Shown here in pieces: positions 15,155-25,319 of a stretch of 64,000 bases of DNA. Below the pieces are notes generated by a model. It saw nothing but the letters and a program-made list of their open reading frames with translations. It did not search any database and had not been told where the DNA came from. Made by a program: the position numbers and the translations under genes. This DNA is from Amycolatopsis benzoatilytica AK 16/65 (GTDB lineage Bacteria > Actinomycetota > Actinomycetes > Mycobacteriales > Pseudonocardiaceae). Numbering within the stretch: position 1 is the first letter of the stretch; each line of letters starts with the position of its first letter. The DNA lies in assembly GCF_000383915.1 (NCBI RefSeq), contig NZ_KB912942.1, positions 6,377,175 to 6,441,174 on the forward strand, read 5' to 3'.

Positions 15155-15571
15155 ATGACGCAAGCCGGCAGCCCCTGCGTGTTCTGTGCCATCGCCGACG
15201 GAGACACCTCGGCGGAACGGGTTCTGTTCCGCGATGAGCACACCGTGGCCTTCCTCGACCACACTGCCGTCACTCCTGGCCACACGCTGGTGATCCCCCG
15301 GGCACACGCCACCGACATCTGGGACATCTCCGCCGACGCGGCCGCCGCCGTCATGCGGACCGTGCACCAGATGGCGGCACGGATCCGTACCGCACTGCAC
15401 CCGGACGGGCTGACGTTGTTCCAGGCGAACCGGCCGGCTGGCTGGCAGGACGTCTTCCACCTGCACGTGCACCTCGTCCCGAGGTCGGACGGCGATCACC
15501 TTGCCCGGCCTTGGAGTGCCACCGTGAAAAACGGCGCGACCCTGGCCGCGGTTCGCGAACTGCTGGCGTGA
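15155..15571 (+). CDS. HIT-family nucleotide hydrolase/transferase
   Basis: A 138-residue histidine triad protein. The catalytic HLHVHLVPR motif lies near residue 108, and an N-terminal CVFC pair could bind zinc, as in many HIT hydrolases. Known members cleave AMP-linked substrates such as adenosine phosphoramidates or dinucleoside polyphosphates. No strong ribosome site precedes the ATG; a leaderless message is possible. It is divergent from nat with 184 bp between. Confidence 0.92.
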   Translation: MTQAGSPCVFCAIADGDTSAERVLFRDEHTVAFLDHTAVTPGHTLVIPRAHATDIWDISADAAAAVMRTVHQMAARIRTALHPDGLTLFQANRPAGWQDVFHLHVHLVPRSDGDHLARPWSATVKNGATLAAVRELLA

Positions 15572-15604
15572 ACTCGGCGCCGTCCCGCAGGCCGGTGCGA
15601 AGCC

Positions 15605-15655
15605 TTGACAGCGCCTCGCCCAGACTCCACGATAGAGAAATAGGAAAGTTTCCTA
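15605..15655 (+). promoter_or_regulatory. Promoter and palindromic operator upstream of the MFS/N-oxygenase region
   Basis: TTGACA at 15605-15610 is a consensus -35. About 20 nt downstream lies GATAGA, a weak -10. The perfect palindrome TAGGAAAGTTTCCTA at 15641-15655 sits where transcription would begin. AGGAAA-TTTCCT palindromes are common operators in actinobacteria, often for ROK-type or similar sugar-responsive repressors. That assignment is a recollection, not a demonstrated match. It would control the MFS gene and perhaps the operon behind it. Confidence 0.5.
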
Positions 15656-15815
15656 ACTAATTTTCGAGCTGGTTGCCGGCCTCGGCCGGCTCGTGCCGCG
15701 ACGCATCGACGCGTTTTTCGTGGCGCTGGGGGCAATTCACAGCAGGCCGTGCTGCGGGGGCGTTCGGCCGCTGCTCCCTGCTGCCGTTTCAGTCACTGGG
15801 GAAGGGGGCCTAGCT

Positions 15816-17024
15816 GTGCTGCGTTCCAAGTCCGCCGACGTGCGCGCCCGGTTCGCGGTGCTGGGGATCTTCTGGATTTGCGGACTCCTCTGCGCGGTGT
15901 GGAGCGCGTCGCTGCCCACGCTCAACGCACGGCTCGGTCTCGGCGAAGGCAGGCTCGGCCTGGTTCTGCTGCTCACCGCACTCGGCTCGATGACCTGCAT
16001 GCCGTTGGCCGGGCGGCTGTCCGACGCGTGGTCGAGCCGGAATGCCTTGCGGGCGATCGCTCCTCTCGCGGCACTCGCCCTGCTGGGCCCCGCGCTCGCC
16101 CCGAGCTTCCCGGTTCTGCTGGCGGCCGCGTTCGTGCTCGGAGCGGCGCTGGGATCGCTGGACGTCGTCATGAACACGCAGGCCGCCGAGATCGAAAATC
16201 GTTACGGCCGCCCGATCATGTCGTCGTTCCACGGGGTATGGAGCCTCGGCGGCGTCGCTGGCGGGTTGACGATCAGTGCCGGACTGTCCCTCGGCGCAGA
16301 CGGCACAGCCTTGACCGCAGGCGTCGCCGTGGTCGCGGCCGGGTTGTTTCTCCTGCCCGGCAAGCGACTGCTCGCCGACCGACCTCGGCCCAGGAAGGCG
16401 GATGTCCCGGCTGCCGCGCAGAGCGGCTTGCCGACGATGGCGGTGCTGCTGCTCGGAATGGTGGCGATGGCGGGTTTCGTCAGCGAAGGCGCGGGCTACA
16501 GTTGGGCATCGCTGCACGCCGCGGAAGCGCTCGGCGCCGACCCGGCCACGGCCTCGTTCGCCTATCCGGTCTTCGCCGCCGCGGTGACCGTCACCCGGCT
16601 CACCGCCGACCGGCTGCGGTCGAAAACGGAGCCGGCCGCCTGGATACGGCTGACCGGCTCGATCGCGGCGGCGGGCTACGCGATCGTGCTCGCCGCGCCG
16701 TTGCTGCCAGCCGGCCGGATGGCGGCCGGCCTGGTCGGCTGGTCCGTCGCGGCGGCCGGGCTCGCGACGATCGTGCCTGGCGTTTTCAGCGTGGTCGGCA
16801 CCGCGGGAGCGAACGTCGGCCGCGCCCTTTCCGGGGTGACCACGATGGCCTACGCCGGGCAACTGGGCGGGCCAGCGGTGATCGGTCCGCTCGCCGGAGC
16901 CACGTCGCTGGGCGTCGCGATGGCGGTCCCCGGCCTTCTCGCGCTGGCGATCGCCGTCGCCGGGCCGATCGCGATCCGGCGGGCGACCGGCCCGGCCCGG
17001 GCGGCGCCCGTCTCCGCCGCCTGA
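15816..17024 (+). CDS. MFS transporter (YbjJ-like)
   Basis: A 402-residue polytopic protein with about 12 hydrophobic segments. The loop PLAGRLSDAWSSRNAL fits the conserved MFS loop between helices 2 and 3, and SFHGVWSLGGVAGG is typical of the YbjJ-like subgroup. The GTG start was chosen because AAGGGGG precedes it and the first helix begins 12 residues in; the open frame extends upstream without similarity. It lies 80 nt before the deacetylase and may be the exporter or importer of the following cluster, though a weak hairpin at 17056-17084 lies between. Confidence 0.8.
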   Translation: MLRSKSADVRARFAVLGIFWICGLLCAVWSASLPTLNARLGLGEGRLGLVLLLTALGSMTCMPLAGRLSDAWSSRNALRAIAPLAALALLGPALAPSFPVLLAAAFVLGAALGSLDVVMNTQAAEIENRYGRPIMSSFHGVWSLGGVAGGLTISAGLSLGADGTALTAGVAVVAAGLFLLPGKRLLADRPRPRKADVPAAAQSGLPTMAVLLLGMVAMAGFVSEGAGYSWASLHAAEALGADPATASFAYPVFAAAVTVTRLTADRLRSKTEPAAWIRLTGSIAAAGYAIVLAAPLLPAGRMAAGLVGWSVAAAGLATIVPGVFSVVGTAGANVGRALSGVTTMAYAGQLGGPAVIGPLAGATSLGVAMAVPGLLALAIAVAGPIAIRRATGPARAAPVSAA

Positions 17025-17104
17025 CCTGGCAAGCCGGCCGAGCAACGACAAGTCCGCACCCGTGCACCACCGGACGACGGGTGCTTCACCTAGGGGGTTA
17101 CTCG

Positions 17105-18145
17105 ATGCTGTACGCCGGAATCAGCTGGACCGCCACGGGTTTCGAGGTGCAAGTGGCCGGGCCGGACGGCCGGATCGACCGGCCGGCGGTGCGCTTCACC
17201 GCGAATCGGCCGAAAGAAATCGCTTCCTATCTGAAGGGGATCGGAAGCGCGGTGACGGTGGTCGTCGACAGCACCAACGGAATGCTCGACGGCGGGCTGA
17301 TGGCGGCCGGGCTGCGGGTGCACCGGGCCGATCCGCAGGTACTGCCCGCTCCCCCGGGCTTCGGTTCGGTGTCCGCGGCGGAACTCGCGCTGACCGCGTG
17401 GCGTGCTCCGGCCGCGGTGGTCCCGCTCGCTATCGAGACCGGTTCGCTCACCGGAAGGCTCGACGAGGTGGCCGCCGGGATCGCCGCCAGCGAGGAGGCG
17501 ACCGCCCGGATGACGGCCGCCGGAAACTGTGTGGTGCACGGCGACCGGGCCCGGCCGGAGATCGCCCTGACCTTCGACGACGGCCCGAATCCGCCGTATA
17601 CCGGCAAGATTCTCGACCTGCTGGAGCGGTACGGCGTCCGCGCGACGTTCTTCTGCGTCGGCCTGAACGCGAGCGCGTCCGGCGAAGACCTGCAGCGCAT
17701 GATCGAACAGGGCCACGAGGTGGGCAACCACACCTGGTCGCACCCGTTCCTGCCGGACCTGTCCGAAACCCAGTTGGCCGACCAGATCGATCGCACCGCC
17801 GAGGCGATCGGCTCCGCCACCGGTGCCGAGCCCGGATATTTCCGGCCGCCGTACGGCTCCCGGACGCCCGCGATCGTCCAATCCCTCGCCGGACGGGGGA
17901 CCAAGGTCGCGTTGTGGGACGTGGACACCGAGGACTGGGCCATGCGAGGCCCGGAAGTCGTCACGAAGACCGTTGCGCACCAGACCCGGCCCGGGTCGGT
18001 CGTGCTCATGCACGACGGCGGCGGCGACCGTTCGCAGACCGTCGCCGCGCTGCCCGCGGTGATCGAAGGACTGCTGTCACGCGGACTGGAGTTCGTCCGC
18101 GTCCAAGACCTGTCTGCTCCGAGTTTCCCGACAGAAGCGAGGTAG
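17105..18145 (+). CDS. Polysaccharide deacetylase with N-terminal IS110-like RNase H-fold domain
   Basis: A 346-residue protein. The C-terminal 200 residues are a NodB-type metal-dependent deacetylase with all motifs: TFDDG at 156-160, HTWSH at 209-213, RPPYG at 247-251 and the late His in VVLMHDGG. The first 110 residues do not match a usual carbohydrate-binding domain. Their pattern (GISWTATGFEVQVAGPDG; VVVDSTNGMLDGGLMAAGL; an Ala/Leu helix after GFGS) follows the DEDD N-terminal domain of IS110 transposases, with the first Asp changed to Ser. There is no signal peptide or membrane segment, so it should act in the cytosol. AGGGGG precedes the ATG. Confidence 0.85.
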   Translation: MLYAGISWTATGFEVQVAGPDGRIDRPAVRFTANRPKEIASYLKGIGSAVTVVVDSTNGMLDGGLMAAGLRVHRADPQVLPAPPGFGSVSAAELALTAWRAPAAVVPLAIETGSLTGRLDEVAAGIAASEEATARMTAAGNCVVHGDRARPEIALTFDDGPNPPYTGKILDLLERYGVRATFFCVGLNASASGEDLQRMIEQGHEVGNHTWSHPFLPDLSETQLADQIDRTAEAIGSATGAEPGYFRPPYGSRTPAIVQSLAGRGTKVALWDVDTEDWAMRGPEVVTKTVAHQTRPGSVVLMHDGGGDRSQTVAALPAVIEGLLSRGLEFVRVQDLSAPSFPTEAR

Positions 18146-18152
18146 TGCGGCC

Positions 18153-19118
18153 ATGATCCATCCGATCGAAACCCAGGAAACCCATGTGGGACCGAGCCTG
18201 CTGCGCCGGCTGGCGGCGGCGTGGCCCAAGCGCGCGACCATCCGCACGGACATGGGCGGGGTGCTCAACCCCGGCGACTACGACCCCGGCCTGCTCGACT
18301 ACCCCCTGCACCTGATGCCGTTCGCCGAGCATCCCCGGTTCGTCGCCGCCTCCGAGGAGCAACGGCTGCGCGTGAACACACTGGCGTGGATCGCCTACAA
18401 CGAAAGGGTGATCGCCGCCGAAGAGTACGTGGCGAACCCGACCTTCGAAAAGCTCGGCCACGGCGTCTTCCCCGGCGTGGACCGGTTCGAGGTCAAAGAG
18501 GCGGTGCAGCAGTCGCACATCGACGAGGTCTGGCACACCTACATGCACATGATGGCGATGCAGCGCACCCGCGAGGCCCGGCAGGTCGAAGCCGAGCACG
18601 GGTTCGCGCAGCCGGTCACCAACCGCAGGCTGTACGCACTGGCGGACACCATGAGCGAGCAATGGCAGCAGGATCTGCTCTATCTCATGTGGACGGCCGT
18701 CGGCGAGATCAGCATCAATGCCTTCCTCGATCTGCTGGCCGGCGACAAGTCGATCCAGCCGATGCACGCACTCGTCGCCCGCCTGCACGCGCGCGACGAG
18801 GCCGCCCACGGCCCGGTGCTGGCCGAGCTGATGAAGGAGATCTACCCGAAGCTGGACCGCAAGCAGCAGGACTTCTTCGTCCGGCACCTGCCCGAGGCGA
18901 TCACCGCGTTCGGGGCCGAGGACTACCAGTTGTGGCCTCAGGTGCTCCGGGTCGCGGGCATCGCGAAGGTCGACGAGATCATCGCGGATTCCCGCAGCCA
19001 GGAGGACGGCGAAGTGATGATGAACGATTTCGGCACCGTGCGCCGGCTGCTGCGCGAACTGGACATCGAGGACAAGGTCGAGTACGACTTCGGGCCGGCC
19101 AAGGACGGCGCGCGATGA
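18153..19118 (+). CDS. AurF-type diiron N-oxygenase
   Basis: A 321-residue non-haem diiron oxygenase of the AurF family, members of which oxidise aromatic or aliphatic amines to hydroxylamine, nitroso or nitro groups. All seven AurF iron ligands can be placed at exactly the AurF spacing: Glu90, Glu125, His128, Glu185, His212, Glu216, His219, the last three in HARDEAAH. The substrate is unknown. It starts 7 nt after the deacetylase and its stop overlaps the next start (ATGA), so it is translationally coupled to the deaminase-fold pair. The family call rests on my alignment with remembered AurF numbering. Confidence 0.9.
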   Translation: MIHPIETQETHVGPSLLRRLAAAWPKRATIRTDMGGVLNPGDYDPGLLDYPLHLMPFAEHPRFVAASEEQRLRVNTLAWIAYNERVIAAEEYVANPTFEKLGHGVFPGVDRFEVKEAVQQSHIDEVWHTYMHMMAMQRTREARQVEAEHGFAQPVTNRRLYALADTMSEQWQQDLLYLMWTAVGEISINAFLDLLAGDKSIQPMHALVARLHARDEAAHGPVLAELMKEIYPKLDRKQQDFFVRHLPEAITAFGAEDYQLWPQVLRVAGIAKVDEIIADSRSQEDGEVMMNDFGTVRRLLRELDIEDKVEYDFGPAKDGAR

Positions 19119-19645
19119 TCCTGACCGGGCCCGAGATCGCCGAGTCGGTGCGCGCCGGCCAGATCGAGATCTCCCCGTTCCACGCCGACCAGGTCAACCC
19201 GAACAGCTACAACGTCCGCCTCGGCGACACGCTGCTGTCCTACCGCGACGAGGTCGTGGACGCCTACCAGGAGAATCCGACCGAGGAGATCCGGCTGCCC
19301 GAGGACGGCTTCGTGCTGCGGCCGGACCGGCTCTACCTCGGGCACACCGAGGAACGGGTCGGCTCGGACGTCTACGTCCCGTTGCTGTTCGGCCGCTCCT
19401 CGGTAGGCAGGCTGGGCCTGTTCGTGGAAATCACCGCACCGATCGGCGACATCGGCTTCCACGGGCAGTGGACGCTGATGCTCTCCCCGGTGCAGCCGTT
19501 GCGGATCTACCCGGGGATGAAGATCGGCCAGATCATGTTTTTCGTCTCGTGCGGCGAGATCGACTTGTACCGGGGGAAGTACCAGTCCGCGATCGGGCCA
19601 CAGGAATCCCGGTACTGGCGCGACAGATTGGCGGCGGTGTCGTGA
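19115..19645 (+). CDS. dCTP deaminase-fold protein A (lacks catalytic Glu)
   Basis: A 176-residue trimeric-fold dCTP deaminase/dUTPase-like protein. It keeps the nucleotide-binding signature RSSVGR (Arg94, Ser95, Ser96, Arg99) and the base-contacting Asp112. At the position of the general-base Glu (27 residues after the first Ser, Glu138 in E. coli Dcd) it has Met122. Classical deamination is therefore unlikely for a homotrimer. It overlaps the N-oxygenase by 4 nt and its paralogue by 4 nt. It may have kept only nucleotide binding, or act together with protein B. Confidence 0.85.
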   Translation: MILTGPEIAESVRAGQIEISPFHADQVNPNSYNVRLGDTLLSYRDEVVDAYQENPTEEIRLPEDGFVLRPDRLYLGHTEERVGSDVYVPLLFGRSSVGRLGLFVEITAPIGDIGFHGQWTLMLSPVQPLRIYPGMKIGQIMFFVSCGEIDLYRGKYQSAIGPQESRYWRDRLAAVS

Positions 19646-20166
19646 TCCTGACCGGTGCCGCGATCGCGACAGCGGTGGCGGCCGGGGACATCGTCATCGA
19701 TCCGTTCGAGCCGGAACGGCTTTCGCCGAACGCCTACGACTGGCGCCTCGGCGACCGGATCCGCACCTGCGGCACGGAACTCGACGCCGCCCGCGCCACC
19801 CCGTTCGCCGAGGAGGTCATCCCGGAGAGCGGCATGGTTCTCCGACCGGGACAGCTGTACCTCGGCATCACCCACGAGCGGACGCATTCGGAGCGGTACG
19901 CCCAGCTCATCAACGGCGATCACACGATCGGCGGACTCGGTGTCTGGGTGCACGTGTCCGCGCCGCTCGGCCACGTCGGCCACGCGATCAGGTGGACGCT
20001 GGAGATCCGGGCCGCGCGCGCGGTCCGGATCTACCCCGGGATGACCTTCGGCAAGATCGTCTTCCTGGCGACGCACGGATCTCTGGCCAGCTATCAGCGC
20101 CTCGGCGACAAGTACACGAACACCGCGGGGATCGGTGCCTCGCGGCTGCACGAGGAGCTGAGATGA
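19642..20166 (+). CDS. dCTP deaminase-fold protein B (keeps Glu, lacks SSxxR)
   Basis: A 174-residue paralogue of the preceding gene with a GTG start in a GTGA overlap. Here the catalytic-type Glu121 is present in WTLEI, but the RSSxxR signature reads DHTIGG (His94, Thr95, Gly98) and the Asp contact is His111. It is the mirror image of protein A. In the Dcd family active sites lie at subunit interfaces, so an A-B heterotrimer might rebuild complete sites; alternatively both are pseudoenzymes used as nucleotide sensors. Which residues come from which subunit must be checked on a structure. Confidence 0.85.
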   Translation: MILTGAAIATAVAAGDIVIDPFEPERLSPNAYDWRLGDRIRTCGTELDAARATPFAEEVIPESGMVLRPGQLYLGITHERTHSERYAQLINGDHTIGGLGVWVHVSAPLGHVGHAIRWTLEIRAARAVRIYPGMTFGKIVFLATHGSLASYQRLGDKYTNTAGIGASRLHEELR

Positions 20167-21236
20167 GCACGCTCACCGGGATCGACCTTCCGCTGGGCAG
20201 CCCGGGCGGCAGCGTCGAACTGCTCTACGACCTCTATCTGGGACCGGAGGCACCGATCGATGCCGCGGTATTCATGCTGGCGCCGGATCGTCCGCGCGGC
20301 GGTGCAGCTGGCGGGCCGAAACTGCTGGACGTCCCGGGCAAACAGCTCGACGGTCCCAGCTTTTGGTCCTATGTAGACAATCTGGCGACCGCGCTCGGCA
20401 GCACCTTCGACGAGGACAGCTTCGACGCGATCCATCTGCAGCACCTCGGATTCGGTGCCACTCCGGCGCTGCTCAAGGCGTTCCCGGAGCATCCGCGGAT
20501 CGCGCTGGTGCACGGGACGGATCTGCTGTTCGCGGCGGATCACCCCACACAGCGGGAAGTCCTGCTCCGGTCCGCCCGGCTCGCCGACTCGATCGTCGTG
20601 CCGACCTCGGCGATGGCCGACCTGGTGCGCGAGATGGCGCCGGTCGGCCCGGACCGGATCGTCCGGGTGCCCTGGGGAATTCCGGACCGGCTGCTCAGCG
20701 ACCCGCCGGTTCGCGGGCCCAGTGCCCGAGACTCCTTCCGCGTGCTCTACGCCGGACGACTGACGGCCGAGAAGGGGGCCGCCGAACTGATCGCGGCCGT
20801 TTCCGGCCTGCCGGACCTGACCCTGTGCATCGCCGCTCCGGAGCACGAGTTCGCCGCGTTGTCGGCCACTGTGGACACCGCCGGTGTCGAGTACCTCGGC
20901 TGGTTCGACCGGGAGGAGCTGTGGCAGGCGTTCGCCCGGCACGACCTCTTGGTCGTTCCGTCCACAACGCTGGAAGCGTTCGGGCTCGTCGCGGTCGAGG
21001 CGCAGGCATGCGGCTTGCCGGTGGTGTATCAGCCGGTTCCGGGCCTGACCGAGGTGCTCGGCGACTCGGCCGCCCGCTCGGACGCGCGATCGCTCGCGGA
21101 CACGGTTCGGTCGCTGCAGAAGGACGACGCGGCGTTGGCGGACCTGCGCGCCGCCGGATCGCGCAACGCAGCCCGGTTCCCGTTGTCCGCGACGGCGGCT
21201 GAACTCGAGTCGCTCGCCTCGCAGGTGCGCCGGTGA
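20163..21236 (+). CDS. Family 4-type (GT-B) glycosyltransferase
   Basis: A 357-residue retaining glycosyltransferase of the GT-B fold. The donor-binding E-x7-E pattern is clear in EAFGLVAVEAQACGLPV, preceded by VLYAGRLTAEKGAAELIAA, the usual start of the C-terminal Rossmann half. There is no membrane segment. The sugar donor and acceptor are not evident. Both ends overlap neighbouring genes by 4 nt, which places it firmly in the N-oxygenase operon. Confidence 0.88.
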   Translation: MSTLTGIDLPLGSPGGSVELLYDLYLGPEAPIDAAVFMLAPDRPRGGAAGGPKLLDVPGKQLDGPSFWSYVDNLATALGSTFDEDSFDAIHLQHLGFGATPALLKAFPEHPRIALVHGTDLLFAADHPTQREVLLRSARLADSIVVPTSAMADLVREMAPVGPDRIVRVPWGIPDRLLSDPPVRGPSARDSFRVLYAGRLTAEKGAAELIAAVSGLPDLTLCIAAPEHEFAALSATVDTAGVEYLGWFDREELWQAFARHDLLVVPSTTLEAFGLVAVEAQACGLPVVYQPVPGLTEVLGDSAARSDARSLADTVRSLQKDDAALADLRAAGSRNAARFPLSATAAELESLASQVRR

Positions 21237-23056
21237 TCGCGCAGCGCGGCCTGTTCGCCGGTCCGGACCCGGCGGTCAGCCGGGAACTTTACGCCCAGAT
21301 CAGTTCCGGCGAGGCCCGCCGCGACCGAACAGCGCTGGCCGTGGAACCCGCTTCGAAGGTCACCGGGAACACCTACTTCGGCCGGTTCCCGGCGAGCTAC
21401 TGGCAGCGTTGGACCGCGGCGACCGCGGTGCGGGTCGAGATGACCGTCAGCGGCGACGGACTGATTTCGCTGCTGGCATCGGACTTCGAGGGCGAGCCGC
21501 GAGTAGCGGCGGCACAACCGGTCAGCGGTCTCCGCGCGGCCGTCGTCTCGCTCGCCGCGCCCCTCGACCGTTTCTTCGACGGCGGCGCGCTGTGGCTGGA
21601 CTGCGAAACCGGGCCAGGACAACAGCTCGTCGTGGAAGACGTGCGGTGGACGGTCGCGGCGCCGCAGCGGCGGCGGCCGGTCGACCTGACCATCTGCACG
21701 ATGAACCGGCCGGCCGACTGCGTCGCCACCCTCGCCTCGCTCGCCGGAGACGAAGCGGCACTCACCCTGGTGCGGGCAGTGCACGTCGTCGATCAGGGAA
21801 CCGAAACCGTACGCGCGCACGAAGGATTTCCGGCGGTCGCCAAGGCGTTGCGAGGCCGGCTGCGGTACCTCACGCAGCCGAACCTCGGCGGCGCGGGCGG
21901 CTTCACCCGGGGGATGTACGAGAGCACCGGCGACCGGAGCGGCGAACCGGCCGACCTGATGTTCATGGACGACGACATTCTCCTCGAACCCGACCTGCTG
22001 GTACGGATGACCGCCTTTTCCGCCTCCGCCGCGGAGCCGCTGATCCTCGGCGGCCAGATGCTGAACCTGTTGCACCCCACCTCGTTGCATGCCGCCGCCG
22101 AGCACACCGATCTCGACCGCATCCGGCCGGGAAGGCCGGCCCGGCACAGCCTGCACGCGGTCGACCTGCTCGCGACCGACCCCGCGACAGGCAGGCCGTA
22201 CCGACAGGAACTCCGGGTCGACGCGGGCTACACCGGCTGGTGGGCTTGCCTGATTCCGCACGAGGTGGTCACCGAGACCGGCTACCCGCTGGCCGTGTTC
22301 TTCCAAGGCGACGACGCGGAATACTCCTACCGGGCGCGGGCGCACGGCTTCCCCACCGTCACTCTGCCCGGCGCGGGCGTGTGGCACACCGATTTCCGGT
22401 GGAAGGACCACGATGAGGTCAACCGGTATTTCATCGTCCGCAACTACACGATCATCGCCGCGTTGCACGGTCGTTTCCCGGTGCTGCGGATCACCGGGAT
22501 CCTGCTCGCCGAACTCGTCGCCGACCTGCTCGGAATGCAGTACGGCGCCGCGGCGACGCTGATCCAGGCGGTGGAGGACTTCCTTGCCGGGCCCGAGATC
22601 CTGCAGGACGGCGGCGTCTCGGCGCTGCGCCGGATCACCGAGTTGCGAGCAGGCTATCCGGAGACGGTGACTCTTCCCGCGACCGCCGTCCCGGGGATCC
22701 GCTCGAACGACATCGTGATCAGCGAGCCGAGCTTCGCCGACCGGCTGGCTCTCGGCCCGTTGCTCGGGATGCACCGGCTCGCAGCCGGCGCGGTGCCGGT
22801 CGGCGAGGCGTCCTGGTGGCGGGTCGGTGCGCTGCGTACGGCCGTCGTGACCGACGCGTCGCAGCGCGGGGTCCGGGTGCGCACTTACCACCGCGCGCAC
22901 CTGCTGCGGCTGGCCCGGCGCGGGGCCCGCGTGCTCGCCCGGTTCGCGGGTTCGGCCTCCGAGGTCCGGGACCGCTACCGCGCCGCGCTGCCGCAGCTTT
23001 CCAGCCGGGCCGAGTGGACCAGGCTGTTCGACGAAAACCCTAGTGTGGAGGACTGA
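21233..23056 (+). CDS. GlfT2-like galactofuranosyltransferase (GT2)
   Basis: A 607-residue protein with the layout of mycobacterial GlfT2: an N-terminal beta-rich domain (residues 1-145), a GT-A core starting at VDLTICTMNRPADC, and a long C-terminal helical region. The catalytic set is intact: metal-binding DDD in MFMDDDILLEPD, acid pair in FFQGDDAEYSYRARAHGF and His in GVWHTDF. GlfT2 builds cell-wall galactan from UDP-galactofuranose. A copy inside an accessory operon may instead work on a dedicated glycan or glycolipid. The start is a GTG in a GTGA overlap. Confidence 0.87.
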   Translation: MIAQRGLFAGPDPAVSRELYAQISSGEARRDRTALAVEPASKVTGNTYFGRFPASYWQRWTAATAVRVEMTVSGDGLISLLASDFEGEPRVAAAQPVSGLRAAVVSLAAPLDRFFDGGALWLDCETGPGQQLVVEDVRWTVAAPQRRRPVDLTICTMNRPADCVATLASLAGDEAALTLVRAVHVVDQGTETVRAHEGFPAVAKALRGRLRYLTQPNLGGAGGFTRGMYESTGDRSGEPADLMFMDDDILLEPDLLVRMTAFSASAAEPLILGGQMLNLLHPTSLHAAAEHTDLDRIRPGRPARHSLHAVDLLATDPATGRPYRQELRVDAGYTGWWACLIPHEVVTETGYPLAVFFQGDDAEYSYRARAHGFPTVTLPGAGVWHTDFRWKDHDEVNRYFIVRNYTIIAALHGRFPVLRITGILLAELVADLLGMQYGAAATLIQAVEDFLAGPEILQDGGVSALRRITELRAGYPETVTLPATAVPGIRSNDIVISEPSFADRLALGPLLGMHRLAAGAVPVGEASWWRVGALRTAVVTDASQRGVRVRTYHRAHLLRLARRGARVLARFAGSASEVRDRYRAALPQLSSRAEWTRLFDENPSVED

Positions 23057-23059
23057 TCC

Positions 23060-23884
23060 ATGGCCCGGCCAGCGTTGGTGGCAACAGATCTCGACGGGAC
23101 GGTCGTGCGCCCGGACGGGACCATCTCCGAACGCACGGTAGCCGCGTTCGCCAGAGTCGAGGAGGCCGGTGCCGAGTTCGTCGTCGCGACTGGACGTCCG
23201 CCGCGCCTGGTGGACGAGATCGCCGCGAGGTTCGGCGACCGGGGCGTCGCGATCTGCTCGAACGGCGCGTTCCTCTACGACATGCACGAGCGGAAGGTCA
23301 TCGAGGAGCACGGCATCTCCCCGGAGGACCTGACCGAGGCGGTTCGCAGGCTGCGCAAGGAGATCCCGGGGATCGGCATCGCCGTGGAGCACGCCGTGGA
23401 CCTGGTAGCGGACGATCTTTACGAACCGTGGGAATGGGACCGGGGCGCGACCGTGGTGCGAGCCGACGACGAGGTCCTGCTGAGCCGCCCGGCGCCGAAA
23501 CTGCTCGGTCGGCACCCGGAATTGTCGGCGGACGAACTGCTCGCGCTCGCCGCGCCAGCCCTGGCCGGGCTGGTGACCGCCTCGCATTCCAACGGCTCCC
23601 GGCTGGTCGAAGCGGTCGCCCTCGGGGTGAACAAGGCGGCCGCGCTCGCCCGGCTGGCACAGCGGTGCGGCATCGGATCCGACCAGGTGATCGCGTTCGG
23701 CGACATGCCCAACGATCTCCCCATGCTGTCCTGGTCCGGCACGGCCTACGGAGTGGCCAACGCACATCCGGACGTCCTCGCGATGGTGGATCACGTGATC
23801 GGGAGCAACCGCGAGGACGGCGTCGCGGCCGTGCTCGAAAACCTCTACCCGGGCGCGAACGAAGGGGCTTCGGCCGATGAGTGA
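23060..23884 (+). CDS. HAD-IIB (Cof-type) phosphatase
   Basis: A 274-residue haloacid-dehalogenase-type phosphatase. Motif I is TDLDGT with both Asp residues, motif II the Thr in VVATGRPP, and motif IV is FGDMPNDLPML. A cap domain of the Cof type sits between. Such enzymes dephosphorylate sugar phosphates and small metabolites. It starts 3 nt after the GT2 stop and overlaps the GH3 gene by 8 nt. In this operon a sugar-phosphate substrate is a fair guess. Confidence 0.88.
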   Translation: MARPALVATDLDGTVVRPDGTISERTVAAFARVEEAGAEFVVATGRPPRLVDEIAARFGDRGVAICSNGAFLYDMHERKVIEEHGISPEDLTEAVRRLRKEIPGIGIAVEHAVDLVADDLYEPWEWDRGATVVRADDEVLLSRPAPKLLGRHPELSADELLALAAPALAGLVTASHSNGSRLVEAVALGVNKAAALARLAQRCGIGSDQVIAFGDMPNDLPMLSWSGTAYGVANAHPDVLAMVDHVIGSNREDGVAAVLENLYPGANEGASADE

Positions 23885-25319
23885 GCTCGACCAGATCGTC
23901 AACGCGTGCCTGCTGCCGGGCTACGAAGGCAGCGCACCGCCTGCCTGGGTGCGCGAGGGCCTTGCCGACGGCATCGCCGGGGTCGCCCTGTTCCCGGCCA
24001 ACCTGGAGGGCGGCCGGCAGTCGCTCGTCCGGCACGCCCGCGCCGTACGAGCGATCGCGCCGGACGCGTTGATCGCGGTGGACGAGGAGGGCGGCGACGT
24101 CACCCGGCTCGACTACGAGACAGGCAGCGCCAGTCCCGGAAACCTCGCGTTGGGCGAAATCGACGATCCAGCGCTGACCGGACGGGTGGCGGCGGAGATC
24201 GCGGCCGACTTGAAGGCGTGCGGCGTCAACTTCAACCTGGCGCCGTCGATCGACGTCAACAGCAGCCCGGACAACCCGATCATCGGCGTGCGCTCCTTCG
24301 GCGCCGATCCCGAACGGGTCGGGGTGCACGGCGCGTCCTTCATCCGGGCCATGCAGGACGAGGGGGTGGCGGCGGTCGCCAAGCATTTCCCCGGGCACGG
24401 CGACACGGTGACCGATTCGCATCGCTCCCTGCCCGTCGTCGACTGTTCGGAGGAAACCTTCCGGCAGCGAGAGCTGCCGCCATTCGTAGCGGCGATCCGG
24501 GCGAAGGTGCGCGCGATGATGACGGCACACGTGCTCTACCCGGCACTGGACCCGGACAATCCGGCGACGCTGAGCCGCCGTCTGCTGCACGACCTGGTCC
24601 GCAAGGAACTGGGCTACGAAGGCGTGCTGCTCTCCAGCGCGATCGCGATCGAAGCGGGCCAGGGGAACCCGGACATCGGCGCGGTGGCGGTACGGGCGCT
24701 GCGAGCCGGTTCGGACCTGCTCCTGCTCGGTCCGGGCGACGGCGAGAAGCTGTGCGCGGCGATCCGCTCCGCCGTGACCGAGGCCGTTCGCTCCGGCGAG
24801 CTCACCGCGGCGGTGCTGGAAACCGCGGCTGCCAGAGTGCGAGCGCTGCGGGAATCCTCGGCCCCGCAGCGGAGCGGCCTGGAGGCGGCCCGGCGGGCGA
24901 TCCGGCTCGAGGGGGACGTCGCCCTGCTCGCTCCCGCGGTGGTGGTCGAGCTGCGAGCCGCCGGGAACGCGGCGGTCGGGGAGGCGCAGTGGAGCCTGGC
25001 CGACCGGCTGGCCGCACTGGATGCCGCGGAGTCCACGGTCCGGGTGCACGCCGACGAGCCGACCCCGGACCAGGTGTTGCCGGCAAGCGGGCCGGTCGTC
25101 CTCGTGGCACGGGACGCCTACCGGACCCCCTGGCAGCGAGACTGGCTGCGCAAGGCGCTGGCACTCCGGCCGGACGCTGTCCTCGTGGCGGTGGGAATGC
25201 CCGACGACGTGACTCCGGAGGTCAGCGCGAGCATTCGCACGTTCGGTGCCGCCGCGGTCAACATCGAGGCGGCAGCGGAGGCACTCACCAGCCGGCTGGC
25301 CGCGACGCGATCGAGGTGA
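23877..25319 (+). CDS. GH3 (NagZ-like) protein lacking the catalytic nucleophile
   Basis: A 480-residue family 3 glycoside hydrolase homologue. The NagZ-type loop is intact, KHFPGHGDTVTDSH (Lys169 to His182), which in NagZ carries the Asp-His acid/base pair and recognises N-acetylglucosamine. The nucleophile segment, normally like VISDALDM, reads VLLSSAIAI, so Ser254 replaces the essential Asp. Ordinary hydrolysis is unlikely. There is no signal peptide. The C-terminal 150 residues form an extra domain. It ends the operon. It may bind a GlcNAc-like ligand or have a changed chemistry. Confidence 0.85.
   Translation: MSELDQIVNACLLPGYEGSAPPAWVREGLADGIAGVALFPANLEGGRQSLVRHARAVRAIAPDALIAVDEEGGDVTRLDYETGSASPGNLALGEIDDPALTGRVAAEIAADLKACGVNFNLAPSIDVNSSPDNPIIGVRSFGADPERVGVHGASFIRAMQDEGVAAVAKHFPGHGDTVTDSHRSLPVVDCSEETFRQRELPPFVAAIRAKVRAMMTAHVLYPALDPDNPATLSRRLLHDLVRKELGYEGVLLSSAIAIEAGQGNPDIGAVAVRALRAGSDLLLLGPGDGEKLCAAIRSAVTEAVRSGELTAAVLETAAARVRALRESSAPQRSGLEAARRAIRLEGDVALLAPAVVVELRAAGNAAVGEAQWSLADRLAALDAAESTVRVHADEPTPDQVLPASGPVVLVARDAYRTPWQRDWLRKALALRPDAVLVAVGMPDDVTPEVSASIRTFGAAAVNIEAAAEALTSRLAATRSR

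Follow-up and report, generated by a model that had tools for sequence, protein, structure and literature searches.

We analyzed a 64,000-nucleotide (nt) stretch of Amycolatopsis benzoatilytica AK 16/65 DNA (NZ_KB912942.1, positions 6,377,175 to 6,441,174), referred to in the following as the window, which sits inside a single contig of 8.7 Mb. A sequence-only reading of the window had described eight co-directional genes at 17105–25319, encoding a NodB-type deacetylase, an AurF-type N-oxygenase, two proteins resembling deoxycytidine triphosphate (dCTP) deaminase (Dcd1 and Dcd2), a GT4 glycosyltransferase, a GlfT2-like galactofuranosyltransferase, a HAD phosphatase and a GH3 protein. All eight genes are on one strand, and Pfam agreed with the families for all of them. 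The junctions were +7, −4, −4, −4, −4, +3 and −8 nt, matching the reported gaps of up to 7 nt and overlaps of 4–8 nt, except that seven of the seven junctions are short and not six, which confirmed the eight genes as a real operon. The conserved unit is larger, comprising ten genes at 15155–25319 with a HIT-family and an MFS gene upstream of the eight, since both Amycolatopsis loci described below have these two genes in an unchanged order, and since two further loci (L032 and L042) keep them with the set while lacking the GlfT2-like gene. The features are as follows:

15155..15571, + strand: HIT-family protein (nucleotidyl hydrolase or transferase), histidine triad kept; PF01230, 80.8 bits
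15641..15655, no strand: palindrome TAGGAAAGTTTCCTA, putative operator, between the HIT and MFS genes
about 15816..17024, + strand: MFS transporter; PF07690, 60.6 bits; before NodB in four loci of the same genus
17105..18145, + strand: NodB, CE4 deacetylase; extra N-terminal domain, signal peptide absent; PF01522, AlphaFold
18153..19118, + strand: predicted AurF-type di-iron N-oxygenase; PF11583, 126 bits; nearest solved structure AurF 3chh
19115..19645, + strand: Dcd1, dCTP-deaminase-like subunit, Arg-Ser-Ser/Arg kept, Met at the catalytic Glu; PF22769, 148 bits
19642..20166, + strand: Dcd2, dCTP-deaminase-like subunit, catalytic Glu kept, no Arg-Ser-Ser/Arg; PF22769, 95 bits
20163..21236, + strand: GT4 glycosyltransferase, third core gene; PF00534, 76 bits
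21233..23056, + strand: GlfT2-like galactofuranosyltransferase; PF17994 and PF19320; 337 bits to GlfT2 4fix
23060..23884, + strand: Cof-type HAD phosphatase; PF08282 (Hydrolase_3), 168 bits; TIGR00099, 144.5 bits (cut-off 137)
23877..25319, + strand: GH3 protein of the beta-N-acetylglucosaminidase kind, catalytic nucleophile absent; PF00933, 220 bits

A scan of 84,980 species genomes yielded 128 relatives of Dcd2, and the best 80 of the 128 were kept as loci (L numbers in the following). Because the loci were picked by Dcd2 similarity, Dcd2 is present by construction and the class sizes are no census. Genes were called and clustered with a home-made script; cluster names (MurA, phosphoesterase, hydrolase, ROK, relaxase and so on) come from a Pfam scan of one representative each, and those of the nonribosomal peptide synthetase (NRPS) and asparagine-synthase-like clusters rest partly on reading. 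By tblastn, Dcd1 was found in 78 of the 80 loci, the remaining two (L090 and L091) starting within Dcd2, and GT4 also in 78, the remaining two (L039 and L087) ending just past Dcd2. Of the 77 pairs in which both genes were called, 75 have Dcd1 and Dcd2 overlapping by 4 nt.

The succession Dcd1–Dcd2–GT4 occurred in three types of cluster. AurF lies directly upstream of it in 11 loci from five genera (Streptomyces 4, Amycolatopsis 2, Nonomuraea 2, Actinomadura 2 and Planotetraspora 1). A metallophosphoesterase was found in 59 loci, directly upstream of the Dcd pair in 58/58 with both called; a MurA-like enolpyruvyl transferase is also encoded in 58 of these 59 loci, and a beta-lactamase-family hydrolase in 55. 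A ROK kinase was present in seven loci, six of which also encode an NRPS condensation-like protein. Three loci were left unclassed: L029, where the GT4 gene is in pieces, and L090 and L091, cut as described above. HIT was present in 11/11 AurF loci, in 6/7 ROK loci (7/7 by tblastn) and in 0/59 loci of the MurA type. In total, core-bearing clusters were seen here in twelve actinobacterial genera, and the gene order across the 80 loci ruled out a chance neighborhood, upholding the earlier claim that the genes are coupled. The constant core is Dcd1–Dcd2–GT4, with NodB and AurF as variable parts. The sequence-only reading had placed NodB and AurF at the center; the parts it had treated as peripheral are instead the constant ones.

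The complete order HIT–MFS–NodB–AurF–Dcd1–Dcd2–GT4–GlfT2–HAD–GH3 was intact in both Amycolatopsis loci among the 80. The ordered set that had been proposed as a check was thus found whole in these two loci. In Streptomyces pinistramenti (L032) and Nonomuraea typhae (L042), the set is present minus GlfT2 and partly rearranged, with a weak MFS match (31%) in L042. Conservation beyond close relatives, the point of that check, holds, as the five genera with the AurF version demonstrate. Within the genus, AurF (E 1e-30) was found in 5 of 60 genomes, the window's own included, and in none of 40 genomes from the other families of the order; the other four conserve the order MFS, NodB, AurF, Dcd1, Dcd2, GT4. 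Among 394 genomes sampled evenly across the class, own genome counted, Dcd2 (E 1e-35) was found in four, the NodB family (E 1e-90) in three and the AurF type (E 1e-60) in two, where the NodB search scored five candidates per genome and may have missed some. Dcd2, the NodB family and the AurF type are rare and patchy across the class.

Dcd1 and Dcd2 have each lost a different part of the active site. In the alignment, 80 of 80 Dcd1 rows have the Arg-Ser-Ser motif and the next Arg, with Met in place of the catalytic Glu. For Dcd2, 84 of 84 rows retain this Glu and have neither Arg-Ser-Ser nor the following Arg (rows L094, L095 and L096 were left out of both counts). By the E. coli and Mycobacterium enzymes, we take Arg-Ser-Ser/Arg to be phosphate-binding and the Glu to be catalytic. 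Neither chain has a full dCTP deaminase active site, and only Dcd1 (96.0 bits) scored above the TIGR02274 cut-off of 92.8 bits, Dcd2 falling below it at 61.7 bits. The other full-length Dcd of the same genome has both motifs (GKSSLGR and TLELSN), and a plain role in nucleotide housekeeping was rejected, since a complete Dcd is already encoded elsewhere. In the dUTPase superfamily, active sites are formed between subunits (PMC4827122). Because the sites of this fold lie between subunits, we infer that Dcd1 and Dcd2 probably form an obligate heteromer.

Eight further tandem Dcd pairs are carried on plasmids (two in Rhizobium, three in Streptomyces and one each in Nonomuraea, Nocardiopsis and Embleya). 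In all eight, the Glu is conserved in one partner and replaced by Gln in the other. A Paenibacillus plasmid carries a single, unpaired Dcd (L096), in which both motifs are present. In a tree of 52 Dcd proteins, a branch with support of 98/93 separated the partners that keep the Glu, including Dcd2, from those without it, including Dcd1 (24 versus 24 rows, with 4 in neither group), although the tree has long branches, unsettled bootstrap and an unsure root, and when rooted on housekeeping Dcd did not show the Glu-less set as one clade. The tandem Dcd pair is old. As the replacement is Met in Dcd1 but Gln in the plasmid partners, the Glu may have been lost on two separate occasions. A glycosyltransferase was annotated or found near five of the eight plasmid pairs (L095, L125, L126, L127 and L129); the two Rhizobium records have none annotated within the fetched stretch, and the L130 record is unannotated. 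Genes for a PIG-L deacetylase, WbqC and a GT4 come after the pair in L125, and a HIT gene lies about 3 kb further on the opposite strand. The Glu-less partner of the Embleya pair (L129, 7941–9140) is extended by about 225 residues that had no Pfam match at E 0.001 and that by eye resemble the ATP-binding domain of phosphoenolpyruvate synthase. A His-Xaa-Ser radical S-adenosylmethionine maturase system (hxsB, hxsC) is annotated about 2 kb from the Rhizobium etli plasmid pair (L094, 6645–9947).

The AurF protein matched PF11583 far above the cut-off of 29.6 bits and aligned to AurF of the aureothin pathway (3chh) with 283 bits over 309 residues. The seven positions that we take to be the iron ligands, placed through this alignment, are kept in 12/12 AurF proteins, the window protein and its 11 relatives from the 80 loci, in keeping with the earlier statement that all seven are present. 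The L042 protein departs from the remaining ones at two positions near the ligands. Unlike the aureothin enzyme, the window AurF has other neighbors, and it fell below the cut-off of the NCBIfam 4-aminobenzoate N-oxygenase model NF045603 (329.3 versus 620 bits). An elongation-factor-G-like GTPase of 666–667 residues is encoded about 3–5 kb upstream of AurF in two Actinomadura loci (L027, 3680–5680; L030, 3614–5617); it has Pfam EF-G domains and by eye resembles ribosome-protection proteins.

NodB matched PF01522 with 126 bits, and its metal and catalytic motifs, which had been reported as complete, were invariant in an alignment of 51 sequences. Its AlphaFold model has a predicted local distance difference test (pLDDT) score of 94, and the C-terminal part has the CE4 fold, closest to a Bacillus N-acetylglucosamine (GlcNAc) deacetylase; the 50 solved structures listed for the model match the CE4 part, judged by their titles. 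Residues 1–75 (17105–17330) form an extra domain with the order strand-strand-strand-helix-strand-helix-strand, as in the RNase H-like fold. This domain is common to the best 120 relatives (coverage of at least 95%). NodB was rejected as a cluster marker, as there are at least 120 relatives at this coverage, extra domain included. A CE4 motif was found in the called genes of 6 of the 11 AurF loci and in 0 of the 69 others (Fisher 1.5e-6, where related genomes are not independent). Genome-wide, the NodB family was present in six of nine AurF genomes and in none of seven others. Both Actinomadura genomes have two NodB genes 18–21 kb upstream of Dcd2, provided that these genes share a contig with it, which their equal spacing suggests.

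The core GT4 scored only 49 bits against the MshA model (cut-off 462.5). The GlfT2-like protein has matches to the N-terminal domain (72 bits) and domain 3 (78 bits), and the DDD and Asp/His motifs, which we presume to have their usual catalytic roles, are kept in three of three proteins; these are the window protein and those of the two Amycolatopsis loci, the only ones found among the 80. A second GlfT2-type gene lies elsewhere in the genome (C1:6766211), so the cluster copy is a paralogue and is probably specialized. The GH3 protein, present in five of the 11 AurF loci and in no other class, has lost its nucleophile by sequence: the position holds Ser in the window and Ser or Thr in six of six orthologues, compared with the catalytic Asp in the three solved relatives aligned. 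The KHFPGHG motif and the following Asp-x-His are kept in 6/6.

Upstream of the operon, the HIT gene occupies the same place in L013 and L014, and an FHLHVH or FHLHLH motif is present in 18 of 18 members of the HIT cluster. The MFS reading frame is open from 15693, the start at 15816 being the choice of the gene caller. L013 and L014 have sites resembling the palindrome TAGGAAAGTTTCCTA at the corresponding position, and L032 has one between NodB and HIT; the palindrome is perhaps an operator. A ROK-family regulator gene lies within the L042 cluster. A promoter scan found none, and a terminator scan found six, uninformative against 3.5 (standard deviation 2.0) in shuffled sequence. An anti-phage defense system was rejected, as PADLOC models matched none of the eight proteins at E 0.01.

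Other observations concern the surroundings of the loci. A relaxase-like gene (representative Pfam Relaxase, 42 bits) lies near 24 of the 59 MurA-type loci and a DUF3631 gene near 21 (for example at L031, L049 and L087), suggesting that the MurA version may travel on integrative elements or plasmids. Streptomyces roseicoloratus has four partly cut Dcd loci on four contigs (L036, L040, L090 and L091), and Streptomyces pinistramenti has two loci 33 kb apart, L032 of the AurF type and the fragmented L029.

A few loci connect the core to nucleotides. The Nonomuraea typhae AurF cluster has a cytidine triphosphate (CTP) synthase gene between GH3 and HIT; this genome has two CTP synthases, compared with one in each of three other AurF-cluster genomes. 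In Streptomyces F12, a cytidine deaminase gene follows the Dcd pair. Together with the Dcd pair, HIT and the phosphatases, these genes point to a pyrimidine nucleotide, albeit from few loci. The ten-gene cluster therefore probably makes a nucleotide-derived compound, and we infer from the gene content that this may be a glycosylated metabolite derived from a pyrimidine nucleotide. A possible scheme starts with the Dcd1/Dcd2 heteromer, of dUTPase fold, whose site would combine the Arg-Ser-Ser/Arg phosphate-binding motif of Dcd1 with the catalytic Glu of Dcd2 and would deaminate a cytosine nucleotide, either CTP or a derivative of it, or attack it in a related way. GT4 would next attach a sugar, probably an N-acetylhexosamine, from which, in the window version, NodB would strip the acetyl group and free an amine. 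AurF would oxidize an amine, more likely the freed sugar amine than that of the base. HAD and HIT could take off phosphate or nucleotidyl groups, the GlfT2-like enzyme could add a further hexofuranose in Amycolatopsis, and the MFS protein could export the product. Overall, we see about an even chance that these loci are a family of actinobacterial specialized-metabolite clusters with a Dcd1–Dcd2–GT4 core, in which a Dcd heteromer acts on a cytosine nucleotide that is then glycosylated.

Several observations weigh against this scheme. In seven of the eight plasmid pairs, Embleya being the exception, the Glu-bearing partner has Arg-Ser-Ser as well and could function by itself. Dcd2 has retained the motif I Asp (84/84), and Dcd1 has Asn at this position (80/80); since dUTPases have this Asp and motif II on one and the same subunit, the active site is not divided in a simple way. 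The structure model of the Dcd2 monomer was too poor for structure searches (pLDDT 59). CTP synthase is present in one cluster only. Finally, the NodB family is absent genome-wide from three Streptomyces AurF genomes (L023–L025), and the called genes of the 80 loci showed no PIG-L motif; deacetylation before N-oxidation is thus plausible but not universal. The link between deacetylase and AurF drawn in the sequence-only reading is therefore borne out by the co-occurrence in AurF loci, but fails in these three genomes.

The association of the CE4 deacetylase with AurF (6/11 versus 0/69) could also mean that the cluster makes an N-oxygenated amino sugar, to be joined to a glycan or glycolipid by GT4 and GlfT2, while the Dcd pair only tunes nucleotide supply. 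The restriction of a GlcNAc-ase-kind GH3 to AurF loci and the intact GlfT2 catalytic residues would agree with this, but the constant genes are the Dcd pair and GT4 rather than NodB and AurF, a complete Dcd exists elsewhere in the genome, GlfT2 is restricted to Amycolatopsis among the 80 loci, and the GH3 nucleophile is gone; we consider this explanation unlikely. Alternatively, AurF might act on an ordinary arylamine (4-aminobenzoate, or one bound to an NRPS), giving a nitro- or hydroxylamino-aryl product that is joined to a sugar-nucleotide part. Among solved structures, the p-aminobenzoate oxygenase AurF comes closest (283 bits), residues beside the iron ligands that presumably bind a carboxylate are kept in 11 of 12 proteins, and 2 of the 11 AurF loci have NRPS adenylation-like genes. 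However, no 4-aminobenzoate supply gene was recognized in the loci (by eye, with no model search), the NCBIfam AurF model was missed by far, and the deacetylase link would be left unexplained, which makes an arylamine substrate distinctly unlikely.

The lack of a complete active site in either Dcd chain, and of a nucleophile in the neighboring GH3, could instead indicate that the Dcd-like proteins are non-catalytic and serve as a nucleotide sensor or scaffold regulating the cluster, with GH3 likewise a pseudoenzyme. Against this stands the invariance of the retained halves (80/80 and 84/84). Dead proteins rarely keep complementary catalytic residues so strictly, and we regard a purely non-catalytic role as very unlikely. 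There is only a slender chance that the Dcd1/Dcd2 heteromer carries out a new CTP chemistry (substitution or aminolysis at C4 or phosphorus instead of hydrolysis), with AurF giving an N-oxygenated pyrimidine nucleotide. The products would then group with EM2487 and 1100-50. We know of no gene cluster for these two, and a link between our cluster and products of that type is speculation. A review of rare phosphorus compounds (PMC6429109) describes EM2487 and 1100-50 as Streptomyces pyrimidine-nucleotide phosphoramidate hydroxylamines, EM2487 containing uridine and 1100-50 cytidine.

Returning to the heteromer acting on a cytosine nucleotide, we found no description of the Dcd1–Dcd2–GT4 core or of an AurF–Dcd combination in the open-licence literature, although such silence is weak evidence. 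Routes that combine a GT4 with a deacetylase are found in mycothiol biosynthesis (MshA/MshB) and in 2-deoxystreptamine aminoglycosides; the likeness lies in a GT4, possibly one that transfers GlcNAc, with a deacetylase as the next step, but here the deacetylase is CE4 rather than PIG-L and the acceptor is probably nucleotide-derived. The Dcd proteins belong to the dCTP deaminase/DCD-DUT family (dUTPase superfamily; PF22769, TIGR02274), but here two adjacent genes stand in for one. A parallel to the pair is found in the monomeric dUTPases of herpesviruses such as Epstein–Barr virus, where, according to PMC12524310, the site is assembled from parts of duplicated copies. Duplication, motif loss and one site from two copies would be common to both, whereas the viral copies are fused in one chain and the bacterial ones are two genes in a biosynthetic operon. 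In the literature, the nearest hint comes from the phaseolotoxin cluster of Pseudomonas syringae, a natural-product cluster for which PMC3927611 lists the adjacent genes phtJ and phtK each as a deoxycytidine triphosphate deaminase, alongside a HAD hydrolase; the likeness is by annotation only, and the part of the table available lists no GT4, AurF or CE4.

If the Dcd1/Dcd2 heteromer is real, a homotrimeric nucleotide enzyme would have been duplicated and divided so that neither half works alone, and then recruited to secondary metabolism, and many tandem genes annotated as dCTP deaminase would need to be reinterpreted. Should the new CTP chemistry prove true, tandem Dcd pairs would serve as markers of unusual chemistry at phosphorus–nitrogen bonds or nucleobases in different phyla, with phaseolotoxin among the cases. 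N-oxygenated amino sugars and nucleotides are chemically rare, and the AurF branch may yield one of them; the Dcd1–Dcd2–GT4 core provides a sequence handle on an uncharacterized group of actinobacterial clusters.

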